A DNA stretch of 64,000 nt from Candidatus Rifleibacteriota bacterium (lineage in GTDB: Bacteria > Muiribacteriota > Ozemobacteria > Ozemobacterales > Ozemobacteraceae). The stretch lies in NCBI GenBank assembly GCA_012520995.1, contig JAAYNI010000003.1, positions 1 through 64,000 of the forward strand. The letters run 5' to 3'. This document shows, in pieces, positions 32,550-35,053 of the stretch (its first letter is position 1; each line of letters opens with the position of its first letter). The position numbers and the translations under genes were made by a program. The notes under the pieces are model-generated. The model was not told the DNA's origin, searched no databases, and was given only the letters and a program-made list of their open reading frames with translations.

Positions 32550-33188
32550 CTAGTCATTTGTTTTAGCTGACGGCTCTCCGTGTTTGCTACATTTGACAGT
32601 ATTATTTTCAGACAATATGTTTGAATATTCTCCATTGCCAAGGCATCTTGGTATTTCTGTTAAATAACCCTTTTGATATAGTTCTGTAAATACAGAAGTG
32701 TTATTGTAGTGTGCTAATGGTGGGATTTTCTCTTTTTGCTCTTTATTGTAAAGTTCAATTGCTTTTTCTATTGCATCAATATTGGAAAAACACAATTCTT
32801 TTTCCTTGACGCTCCATCTATCAAACGGCGAAGCATGTTCACTGCACCATACTGTGTCAACATACTTCTTTTCAACATTGATTTCAATTGAGTAGGTTCC
32901 TTTACTCGGGCATTTTGATCGTTTTTTTTCTAAGTAGCCTTTATTAACCAGTTCTTCCACTTCTATTTCTTTTGGCATTTCCTTAAGATCCATATAGTAT
33001 ATTTCAGCTCTACTATATATTTCAGATATATTAGAGTGACATTCTTTTTTTGTTTTATATTTCCTGCTTTTTTTTATGATTACGAATATACTCTCGCCGT
33101 TAGCCATATATATAAACGTTGAAATAATAGTCAGAATGATAAAAACTTCAATTAGACCTTGGATAATGTGTTTTTTTTTTATTTGCAT
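32550..33188 (-). CDS. Membrane-anchored protein with two pilin-head-like Cys modules
   Basis: A 212-residue protein of unknown function. One N-terminal membrane helix (about 10-38) is followed by two copies of a module of about 75 residues. Each has CxSNI-x3-I-x3-A-x-E-x-Y, then a GYL motif, a Cys-Pro or Cys-Leu segment with G-x-Y, and finally CS-x-H. Copy 1 is CHSNISEIYSRAEIYYMD to WCSEHA. Copy 2 is CFSNIDAIEKAIELYNKE to KCSKHG. The pattern resembles the head of type IV pilins and GspG-like pseudopilins, but the prepilin cleavage site is missing. The next two genes upstream on this strand each carry one more module. The ribosome site is weak. Confidence 0.7.
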   Translation of the reverse strand: MQIKKKHIIQGLIEVFIILTIISTFIYMANGESIFVIIKKSRKYKTKKECHSNISEIYSRAEIYYMDLKEMPKEIEVEELVNKGYLEKKRSKCPSKGTYSIEINVEKKYVDTVWCSEHASPFDRWSVKEKELCFSNIDAIEKAIELYNKEQKEKIPPLAHYNNTSVFTELYQKGYLTEIPRCLGNGEYSNILSENNTVKCSKHGEPSAKTND

Positions 33189-33292
33189 GATCTAGAAAAT
33201 CTTTTTTATCCTTACTTTAAGTTTAGGCTGGTCATAGAGAAATTCTCTTTTGCCAGCCTAAGTTTTTTGTTATTTATTGGTTATTGTCAGCT

Positions 33293-33706
33293 TTAGTTTA
33301 TAGCTCCATGTACACTGCATCTGATTTTGCAGTCTTCTATCAGATTATCTCCGGAATAGGTTCCGCCCGAGGGGCATGTTGTGTATTCGGGTTTCATATA
33401 TTTAGCTTGAATAAGCTTGTCGATATCCAGAACATTCATCATTTCCATGTGATCCATATTGTACATCTCAACTGCACCTTGCATTATAGATATATGAGAA
33501 TGGCAGGCTTGTTTTCTGCTTTCTTGCAGCTTTTCTCCAATGTTTTCTCCTATGCTTTTTGCTTCTTGCGGTTGAGAAGCCTCTGACTGTGTTTTGTCGG
33601 TAGCAGGAGCAGGAGCCTTCTTTGTGCAGCAGGCTGTCATGAAAATAGAAACGAATAATAATGAAGCTGATAGAATTCCAATAATCCAATTTGAACTTTT
33701 CTTCAT
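33293..33706 (-). CDS. Lipoprotein with one pilin-head-like Cys module
   Basis: A 137-residue predicted lipoprotein. The signal peptide ends MTAC (Cys26). An Ala/Pro/Gln/Glu-rich spacer (residues 30-60) follows, then the module from about residue 68: [28 protein letters not shown] and RCSVHG. AAAGGAAAA precedes the ATG. It lies between two genes with the same module. The heavy spacer looks like a tether lifting the module off a membrane. Function unknown. Confidence 0.75.
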   Translation of the reverse strand: [137 protein letters not shown]

Positions 33707-33766
33707 GGGTTTTCCTTTTTATTTTGATTTAGCTTATTAAAGCAAAGCTGTTTTGCGGCACTATAT

Positions 33767-35053
33767 TTACCGAGTCTTGGTGCCATGTATGCTACACTTG
33801 ATTGTTGGTCTTTCGCCGAGGAGATCGGTACCTGAATAGGTTCCGTCTTGAGGGCACTTAGGAATCTCTCTTAAATATCGGCTTTCATGCAATCTTTGCA
33901 GATCTAATTGTGTCATTGGTTCTTTAGGCTGATAGCTACTATACTTGCTGGACATTTCGTTACTTTCGTTTACATCCAAGTTGTACATTTCAACTGCGCC
34001 TTGAATTACGGCCATATTTGAATAGCACACTTTTTCTCTGGCACTGTCTCTGGCTTTTTTGAAGCTGGGAATTGCCATGGTTGCAAGTATTCCTGCTATT
34101 GAAATAGTCAGAGGTTTTATTACGAGATCTTTATCAGGGAAATGTAAATACACGCTTGAGGCGTCTTGCTTGACTTTTATTGTGTTTAGGCTGTCTAAAA
34201 GATTAGCAAGGGAATACAGGTTGCTTATGCTAAGCATTGCTTGGATTAGTGGAGCTTTTTTTGCTTCTTCTGTATTTTCTTGCAGTTGTGCTCTTAGAGC
34301 GGCAAACTGTCCCATGAATGTTTGGAGAAACTTTGATAGCTGTGAAGCAGCCGAAGAATCTGTGAGATCGCTTAGAACGTAGAACTCAGAATCCTTAAGA
34401 CAGGCGCCTATGAATTTGAATTTGTCTTGAGACGGGATCTCAGCAGGCCATTGGCTTGGAGGAATAGAGCTGCTGAGTAATGAGGAATCGAATATGCCTG
34501 CGAAGGAGAGCTGTTTATCTATCAGTTGAGCTATTCGTTCAGGCATAGGAACAAACCATATTTCTCCGGAAGCCATTCTTGGAATAAGTTTTTCACTGCA
34601 AATCAGCAAGAATTGTTTTCCTGAGATAACAGCCCAATCTTTAGCTTTAGCATAGTAGATTTGGCTGTTGTTAATGGTCATGCTTTCCAGTTTTCCGCCT
34701 TCGGAGTCAGCAACGGCTTTTAAAATGGCAGAGGGTGAAAAATTGCCTGTAAGGTAGAAGATGAGGCTTTCTTCAGGTTTTCCTTCTATTAGAAAAAGAC
34801 CGCCGCTTTCAAGATCTCTCTTAGGGTTCAGGTTGAAGTGTTTCATTGAGAGTTCATAAAGAAATGTGTTTATTTTTTCAGTTTCATGAAAACCGGAAAT
34901 ATTCTTATGAAAAGGTGCCCAATCTTCTATTCTGAAATGGAGCATAGCAGCAGTTTTCGTGAAGAATACTTTTTGTTGTGCTGCCAAGTCGGCAGGTAAA
35001 AATGCTAACAAACAAAAAAGAGCTGAAAGAAACAGGATTTTTGATTTTTTCAT
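33767..35053 (-). CDS. Exported protein ending in an internal pilin helix and Cys module
   Basis: A 428-residue exported protein. A signal peptide (about 1-26) is followed by some 290 residues without a recognised domain. Then comes a pilin-like helix: [20 protein letters not shown], leading straight into the module [27 protein letters not shown] and KCSIHG. GILA-x-AIP-x-F-x-KAR is the classic N-terminal helix of type IV pilins and pseudopilins, here placed inside a longer protein and without the prepilin peptidase site or Glu5. I chose the ATG at 35053 behind AAAGGAA; an upstream in-frame start would precede the signal peptide by 11 residues. It looks like a domain fusion. Function unknown. 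Confidence 0.75.
   Translation of the reverse strand: [428 protein letters not shown]

Follow-up and report, generated by a model that had tools for sequence, protein, structure and literature searches.

Three adjacent genes in a window of 64,000 nucleotides (positions 1 to 64,000 of the forward strand of contig JAAYNI010000003.1, assembly GCA_012520995.1, Candidatus Rifleibacteriota bacterium; 'the window' is this whole stretch) carry four copies of a three-cysteine module, and the genome's own type IV pilin, PilA, ends in the same head. Identification of the module as a pilin head is well supported by predicted fold matches, its reuse throughout the phylum is well supported by genome searches, and a lineage match between PilA and the cassettes of vWA-containing hosts was shown by computation. 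We propose, at about even confidence, that the Riflebacteria use the C-terminal head of their major type IV pilin as a portable, probably zinc-stabilised envelope domain for docking.

Detection of the module in the window

The module profile comprised 23 rows, all from other genomes and none from the source genome. Searched against the 1,022 stop-to-stop frames of at least 30 amino acids (aa) in the 64-kb window, it returned exactly four copies in three adjacent open reading frames (ORFs), with full-frame E values of 5.9e-25 (ORF3), 2e-21 (ORF2) and 1.8e-18 (ORF1), and domain E values of 5.5e-9 and 3e-8 for the two copies in ORF1. The runner-up frame of the window reached E 0.69 and the best of five residue-shuffled sets E 0.57; the observation is therefore real and chance is excluded. 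A sequence-only reading of this DNA had claimed four module copies in three adjacent genes, repeated otherwise than by chance, and the search with the module alone confirmed both points. The consensus given there (from CxSN to CSxHG) was correct overall, with small departures in ORF2 (CHSH, KYM) and in both ORF1 copies, of which the first terminates in CSEHA and the second has CLGNGEY. The two ORF1 copies are divergent.

The three ORFs are intact and lie head to tail on the minus strand in the transcription order ORF3, ORF2, ORF1, with spacers of 60 bases (ORF3 to ORF2) and 104 bases (ORF2 to ORF1). The start of ORF3 was taken as the ATG at 35053, a TTG at 35086 being a possible alternative. 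The features are as follows.

33767..35053, minus strand: ORF3, 428 aa from ATG 35053; signal peptide, TP0453-fold domain, internal half pilin helix and head
34085..34993, minus strand: ORF3 TP0453-like domain, residues 21-323; by fold match
34031..34084, minus strand: ORF3 54-base tract, near-identical in DNA to own-genome pilA
33779..34090, minus strand: ORF3 half helix and head module; by model, fold match and profile
33293..33706, minus strand: ORF2, 137 aa; lipoprotein-type signal, linker and one head module, without pilin helix
33305..33529, minus strand: ORF2 head module; by profile
32550..33188, minus strand: ORF1, 212 aa; N-terminal pilin-like helix, degenerate prepilin signal KHIIQGLIEVFIIL and two tandem head modules
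32835..33077, minus strand: ORF1 head module copy 1, C50 ... CPSKGTY ... CSEHA; by profile
32577..32801, minus strand: ORF1 head module copy 2, CFSN ... CLGNGEY ... CSKHG; by profile

The tethers vary, as had been proposed. ORF1 has a single N-terminal helix, followed by copy 1 and then, in tandem, by copy 2; ORF2 has a lipobox-like FMTAC (by eye) and a hydropathy of -0.6 directly upstream of the first module cysteine (Cys1); in ORF3 a signal peptide and a domain of about 300 aa precede the internal half pilin helix. The further claim that no prepilin cleavage site is present also stood, since no working prepilin signal was found in any of the three genes. The Gly at -1 of the prepilin site is absent in ORF1, ORF2 and ORF3; at the start of ORF1 it is lost and the Glu, readable as +5, is kept. 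None of the three has the N-terminal class III signal of a type IV pilin (Gly or Ala at -1 with a hydrophobic alpha1). The ComGC model (NCBIfam NF040999) matched ORF1 residues 12-95 at E 4.2e-5 and 23.6 bits, against a cut-off of 75, and the best match of the window proteins to GspG (TIGR01710) was at E 3.6e-6 and 27 bits, against a cut-off of 88.85. No family in Pfam, NCBIfam or PHROGs accounted for the three window proteins or for the module, the NCBIfam matches being weak, partial and below cut-off.

Predicted structures and fold matches

AlphaFold2 models of two window proteins, ORF3 and ORF1, were compared with known structures by Foldseek and by VIA-align as a second look. The ORF3 model (44 alignment rows) had a mean pLDDT (predicted local distance difference test) of 82.9 and a pTM (predicted template modelling score) of 0.64, and its head was confident, with ten-residue blocks from residue 341 at pLDDT 86-98. 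Residues 333-427 aligned to Clostridioides difficile PilJ (4ixj_B) with VIA-align Z 8.6 and a root-mean-square deviation (rmsd) of 2.3 over 79 residues, and residues 327-428 to GspG of enterohaemorrhagic Escherichia coli (3g20) with Z 7.4. The N-terminal domain of ORF3 (residues 21-321/323) aligned to Treponema pallidum TP0453 (3k8i) with Z 11.9 over 223 residues, and Foldseek returned the TP0453 entry 3k8j at E 5.5e-7, so that this domain is assigned a TP0453-like fold. The ORF1 model (18 rows; mean pLDDT 81.3, pTM 0.53) showed two consecutive helices and a first head at pLDDT of about 91-98, which aligned to PilJ with Z 9.2 and rmsd 1.8 Å over 74 residues. Copy 2 of ORF1 was poorly modelled because that part of the alignment is nearly empty of rows. 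With Foldseek alone, ORF1 had no match at E 0.001; PilJ appeared in the second-look alignment.

Cys1 of ORF1 and of ORF3 both fall on PilJ position 36, when the aligned ranges are read as ungapped to that point. The PilJ motif CKSGGIYSA resembles CPxxGxYS of the module, a weak likeness (phmmer E 0.25); in searches of PDB sequences a 30-module set did not list PilJ and a smaller set did, at E 0.25. These sequence matches are inconsistent and the PilJ relationship therefore rests on fold. Both predicted models have the fold of the PilJ N-terminal domain (PF22473) and a pilin head on the C-terminal half of alpha1. By score, the best PF22473 match was 23.5 bits (locus L024; cut-off 26), and the window proteins were not listed by PF22473 even at E 1. 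Identification of the module as a pilin head is thus well supported, on predicted folds. Unrelated folds, the outcome that the sequence-only reading had named as fatal to it, were not obtained; its choice of a pseudopilin head was right as to a pilin head fold and wrong as to the nearest relative, PilJ and the genome's own PilA being closer than GspG.

The genome's own PilA and the ORF3 tract

The own-genome PilA gene (L019:3732-4124) adjoins PilT and PilB and carries a prepilin signal; these three names were read from sequence and gene order, and N_methyl was matched by Pfam. PilA ends in the same head as the module (CYSN, CPxxGGEY, CSYHG). Among the cassettes compared, the ORF3 cassette had its top score with the own PilA (54/91 residues), and the ORF3 head alone was nearer to the heads of other hosts than to PilA. 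The ORF3 helix tract is identical to pilA at 51 of 54 bases (94%), and of the 16 residues that it shares with PilA, not counting Met, 14 have the identical codon; in the 18 codons after the neighbour of Cys1, ORF3 and pilA share the same codon in 5 of 14. The binomial value for the tract (2.4e-4, at 0.42 per codon) is descriptive because the tract was picked after being seen. Given the near-identical tract and the shared codons, ORF3 looks like a fusion of, or an exchange with, the 3' part of pilA. The source genome has a prepilin peptidase domain. It also has 39 matches to the N-methyl prepilin motif, seemingly many for a 2.8-Mb genome.

Cassettes of vWA hosts follow the PilA of their own lineage

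If the vWA fusion were old and merely inherited, its cassettes should be closest to other vWA cassettes, with no pilin favoured. Unexpectedly, identity of the vWA cassettes to the PilA of the same genome was 62.0%, and to the PilA of other genomes 53.4% (n = 11; 0 of 20,000 permutations). With the sequences grouped into six clades, the diagonal was the best of all 720 pairings (exact 1/720); vWA cassettes across clades were 54.4% identical, against 62.0% for vWA-PilA pairs within a genome and 63.0% within a clade. A composition control with slid alignments was flat (0.0549 vs 0.0551); the effect was gone there, and amino-acid composition is therefore not its cause. A 22-cassette tree grouped three of the vWA cassettes with three from PilA in one clade (100/99), and a single clade of vWA cassettes was rejected by the approximately unbiased test (AU p 0.0087), a value that does not apply to a pre-named group because the vWA grouping was chosen after the wider tree had been seen. 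Alignments among the ten vWA host bodies that were compared span at least 595 residues, at 39-86%.

The wider, 88-cassette tree was poorly resolved (10/84 inner branches starred). It was labelled by length, with L121 as a giant and L085 as vWA, which were taken instead as a vWA host and an ORF3-like host; later vWA tests used a hand-picked table with L121 as vWA. From the identity test one giant (JADFYG) was dropped, its cassette not having been extracted, and the MFYY vWA row contains five unknown residues.

Spread across the phylum and host proteins

The module was found in all 36 phylum genomes searched. The number of matches per genome ranged from 1 to 47, and the set includes no second genome of genus g1. 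Most of the best 80 named matches came from records titled Riflebacteria, Rifleibacterium (Candidatus) or Ozemobacter, and some from records titled Methylomirabilis, Cloacimonadota, Erysipelotrichia, Wallbacteria or uncultured. Copies were read in four genomes: the source genome (11 of 11 matches), G005 (10 of 10), G008 (10 of 12) and G015 (10 of 13), the two and three remaining matches of the last two having no locus sequence. An N-terminal prepilin signal preceded 2, 2, 3 and 3 copies, respectively, and was absent from 31 of the 41 read. A split by regular expression (34 of 118 with signal) was set aside for locus-fetch bias and for missing true signals (such as GFTIWEF in L101). The heads are reused, then, without a prepilin signal and on varied tethers far beyond the window, as the sequence-only reading had supposed; normal signals on all homologues, which it had named as contrary evidence, were not what the counts in relatives gave.

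Host proteins include VIT-vWA proteins with a C-terminal transmembrane (TM) segment, giants of about 1,670-1,935 aa that have 7-11 TM-like segments and carry the cassette near residue 720-820, and ORF3-type secreted proteins containing between one and three cassettes. Further hosts are lipoproteins, a coiled-coil plus head family, and TPR, ankyrin and zinc-ribbon proteins; a protein of G013 (L147:5172-6311) consists of a signal peptide and three tandem bare heads, without pilin helix. By Pfam, vWA/VIT, ankyrin and TPR scored above cut-off and the zinc ribbon below. The coiled-coil plus head family was seen in several genomes (L013, L040, L042, L043, L045, L168, L170 and L172) and has the motif YSIIYKDGRRxFxCSxHG; in the source genome, FHA- and protein-kinase-like genes are found close to it (L020, by eye). 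In several giants of about 1,850 aa (L072:2637-8186; L066, L080, L084, L089) an internal prepilin-like motif, KGFRLVELMIV, is complete and sits where the cytoplasmic face is expected, which raises the question of whether a prepilin peptidase cuts inside these proteins; the motif is decayed in the giants L113, L129 and L130. Carriage by phage was considered and rejected, a scan of viral contigs having found no relative among 295 pattern matches.

Cysteines and a putative zinc site

The search yielded 127 module copies, of which four incomplete ones were dropped and 123 aligned, including a few near-duplicates (L050, L051, L137, L138). Cys1 and Cys3 are present in 123/123 aligned copies and the His in 117/123. 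Cys2 lies at CPxxGxY in 51 copies and at xPExxCxY in 64, never at both. CxxH is replaced by CxxC in L084 and L109 and by CxC in L016, and CxxH/CxxC interchange is of the kind expected of a metal ligand. The constant Cys pair, the two places of Cys2 and the His-to-Cys exchange would be easier to reconcile with a metal site than with a simple disulphide. The head comprises a long and a short helix and a beta-hairpin, and its three Cys and one His most likely form a CCCH zinc site. PilJ, we take it, presumably binds zinc at the corresponding site through conserved Cys and His.

Topology of the heads

Hydropathy before Cys1 was 2.45-2.91 in all ten giants listed, a full spanning helix with an earlier TM-like segment present, and 1.06-1.46 in all ten vWA hosts listed, a non-spanning remnant. 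In giants the earlier TM-like segment would return the chain to the cytoplasm, so that the head would be periplasmic; in vWA hosts the chain would be outside already. On this reading of the sequences the stretch before Cys1 would vary with the need of the host, and the heads of giants and vWA hosts alike would be periplasmic. We infer a periplasmic side in most hosts.

Surroundings of the three genes

On the other strand the trio has an MscS-like gene (Pfam 3.5e-23) to one side and, to the other, a TMEM43-like gene (6.2e-59). Three consecutive TMEM43-like genes occupy 35187-38801 (plus strand), at 35187-36650, 36910-37425 (shorter) and 37716-38801; the first is a match to Pfam PF07787 and the other two were called by eye. 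A hairpin at 33222-33262 (minus strand) separates ORF2 from ORF1, with -20.1 kcal/mol for the stretch and z -5.6; there is no T run on that strand, and an attenuator or mRNA stabiliser is suggested rather than a clear terminator. A long inverted repeat at 32463-32514, with A/T runs on both sides and lying between the convergent MscS-like gene and ORF1, looks by eye like a two-way terminator. Elsewhere in the window, 57086-58495 (plus strand) resembles what we take, from its motifs, to be a MEMO-AMMECR1 fusion protein.

Comparison with known systems

The own PilA shares its head motifs with the module and its helix tract, near-identical in DNA, with ORF3; it differs in its normal prepilin signal and full helix, which ORF1-3 lack. 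The N-terminal domain of C. difficile PilJ has the same fold and the same aligned place of Cys1. PilJ is described as having a dual pilin fold (PMC4471445), and ORF1 likewise has two heads; PilJ differs in being a pilus-associated minor pilin. Modular pilins are described as an N-terminal pilin module with class III signal joined to extra modules, among them vWA, in 264 architectures (PMC8179133). Streptococcus sanguinis PilB (pilin plus vWA) is comparable in that a pilin module is joined to functional modules including vWA. In modular pilins the pilin module is N-terminal and the signal present, whereas in Riflebacteria the head is C-terminal or internal and lacks the signal; the reversed order and missing class III signal mean that the window proteins, in all three of which the head is C-terminal, are not modular pilins by that definition. 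The pseudopilin GspG shares the head fold and a weak TIGR01710 match, far under the family cut-off. TP0453 is described as an outer-membrane-associated lipoprotein of T. pallidum (PMC7521688); the ORF3 N-terminal domain has its fold, the match excludes the ORF3 head, and no lipobox was seen by eye in ORF3, unlike TP0453. No report of such reuse was found for Riflebacteria or Ozemobacter pilins or for modular pilins among the titles and abstract openings of a limited library.

Proposed role and alternatives

Copies of pilA, or of its 3' part, would have been duplicated and then fused downstream of other tethers. In ORF1 the tether is a degenerate pilin helix, in ORF2 a lipoprotein anchor and in ORF3 a TP0453-like domain that is secreted. 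The host would thereby hold a pilin head permanently at the membrane or in the periplasm, and the head would dock it to PilA's usual partners, namely the pilus, the assembly platform or other heads. The hosts have no cleavable N-terminal signal and are therefore unlikely to be filament subunits. We infer the docking role chiefly from the vWA-PilA matching, which is indirect support. A stronger version, offered tentatively and as rather doubtful, makes the head a lineage-specific docking key through which dozens of envelope proteins, though not pilins themselves, attach to the pilus or its machine; equally tentative is the addition that selection, or gene conversion now and then, keeps the heads matched to their own cell's PilA.

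Several points weigh against the proposal. No result shows the heads interacting with pili, and the putative zinc site has conservation behind it; eight of the 123 aligned copies, an SDPG-type subgroup, have Cys2 at neither position, and a four-ligand site is therefore not universal. A search of 32 genomes with PF22473 returned no match at E 0.001, though its controls were silent there too. The internal helix of ORF3 is borderline in hydropathy (1.96) and badly modelled (pLDDT under 50 at 316-330); if it spans the membrane, the ORF3 head would be cytoplasmic, so that it could lie on either side. L016 (388 aa) is without a TM-like segment, and at least one copy may therefore be cytoplasmic. Giant-host cassettes match PilA weakly (57.8 vs 54.8%, p 0.006) and were discarded as a clean second case of PilA matching. 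In most genomes the synonymous codons of vWA-pilA pairs come close to what codon usage predicts; recent gene conversion was accordingly rejected as a general cause, the codons being unsupportive except in the ORF3 tract and possibly in CALLCO and QOQW. Codons giving no sign of recent copying, it would be old conversions or selection to match PilA that keep the pairs alike.

A close rival to docking, quite conceivable though short of an even chance, is a generic zinc-stabilised interaction or ligand-binding domain of pilin descent, its pilus link lost and its partners specific to each host. Such a domain would fit the wide host variety, the three tandem bare heads in G013, the copy in L016 and the CxxH/CxxC interchange; tracking of the own lineage's PilA by vWA cassettes would be unexpected with unrelated partners, and vWA hosts retain the half pilin helix though it is too little hydrophobic to anchor them. 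If, instead, the proteins were minor pilins of the ordinary sort whose N-termini are odd or mis-called, and which still undergo processing and assembly into the pilus, one could account for the pilin-like helix, Glu and ComGC match of ORF1, for the internal GFRLxELMIV retained in relatives' giants, and for the prepilin peptidase domain and N-methyl motif matches of the genome. We regard this as improbable, because ORF2 has no helix, the ORF3 helix has neither the motif Glu nor the Gly and follows a signal peptide and a TP0453 fold of about 300 residues, the motif is lost in three giants, and a protein of signal peptide and three bare heads exists.

Two more local explanations were judged less probable still. 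The three genes might be decaying pilA duplicates, functionless debris, of which the source-genome locus L061 (fragment-like, without Cys1) and the divergence of the ORF1 copies could be signs; the frames are nevertheless open, Cys1 and Cys3 are kept in every aligned copy, and similar host families recur across several genomes, the coiled-coil plus head family at eight loci. A dedicated small system, as the sequence-only reading had proposed, would suit the common strand, the short gaps and the four copies together, and in G014 five close same-strand module pairs were counted against 0.47 expected, a number reached in 0 of 2,000 simulations. G018 has just two such pairs against 0.52 expected (rounded genome sizes and contig numbers were used in this test), and module copies are mostly dispersed in these two module-rich genomes. 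The window neighbours tested (MscS-like, TMEM43-like, aminotransferase and others) had no tblastn match in 13 loci with related genes, and the strong hairpin stands between ORF2 and ORF1. With no shared neighbours and only mild adjacency the small system was not borne out, and the three window genes are best explained by local duplications combined with fusions.

Significance

Pilin modules are thought to act within filaments, with extra domains attached to them. In this phylum the arrangement is reversed: it is the pilin head that is added, with no processing signal, to hosts unlikely to be pilins, which constitutes a natural experiment in what a pilin head does alone. The module is a candidate domain family, no model in the libraries scanned having matched it over cut-off. 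Hosts whose heads follow PilA are a lead to pilus-linked proteins in uncultured bacteria, and, if the docking key is true, a filament subunit would have been converted into a cell-wide addressing domain.

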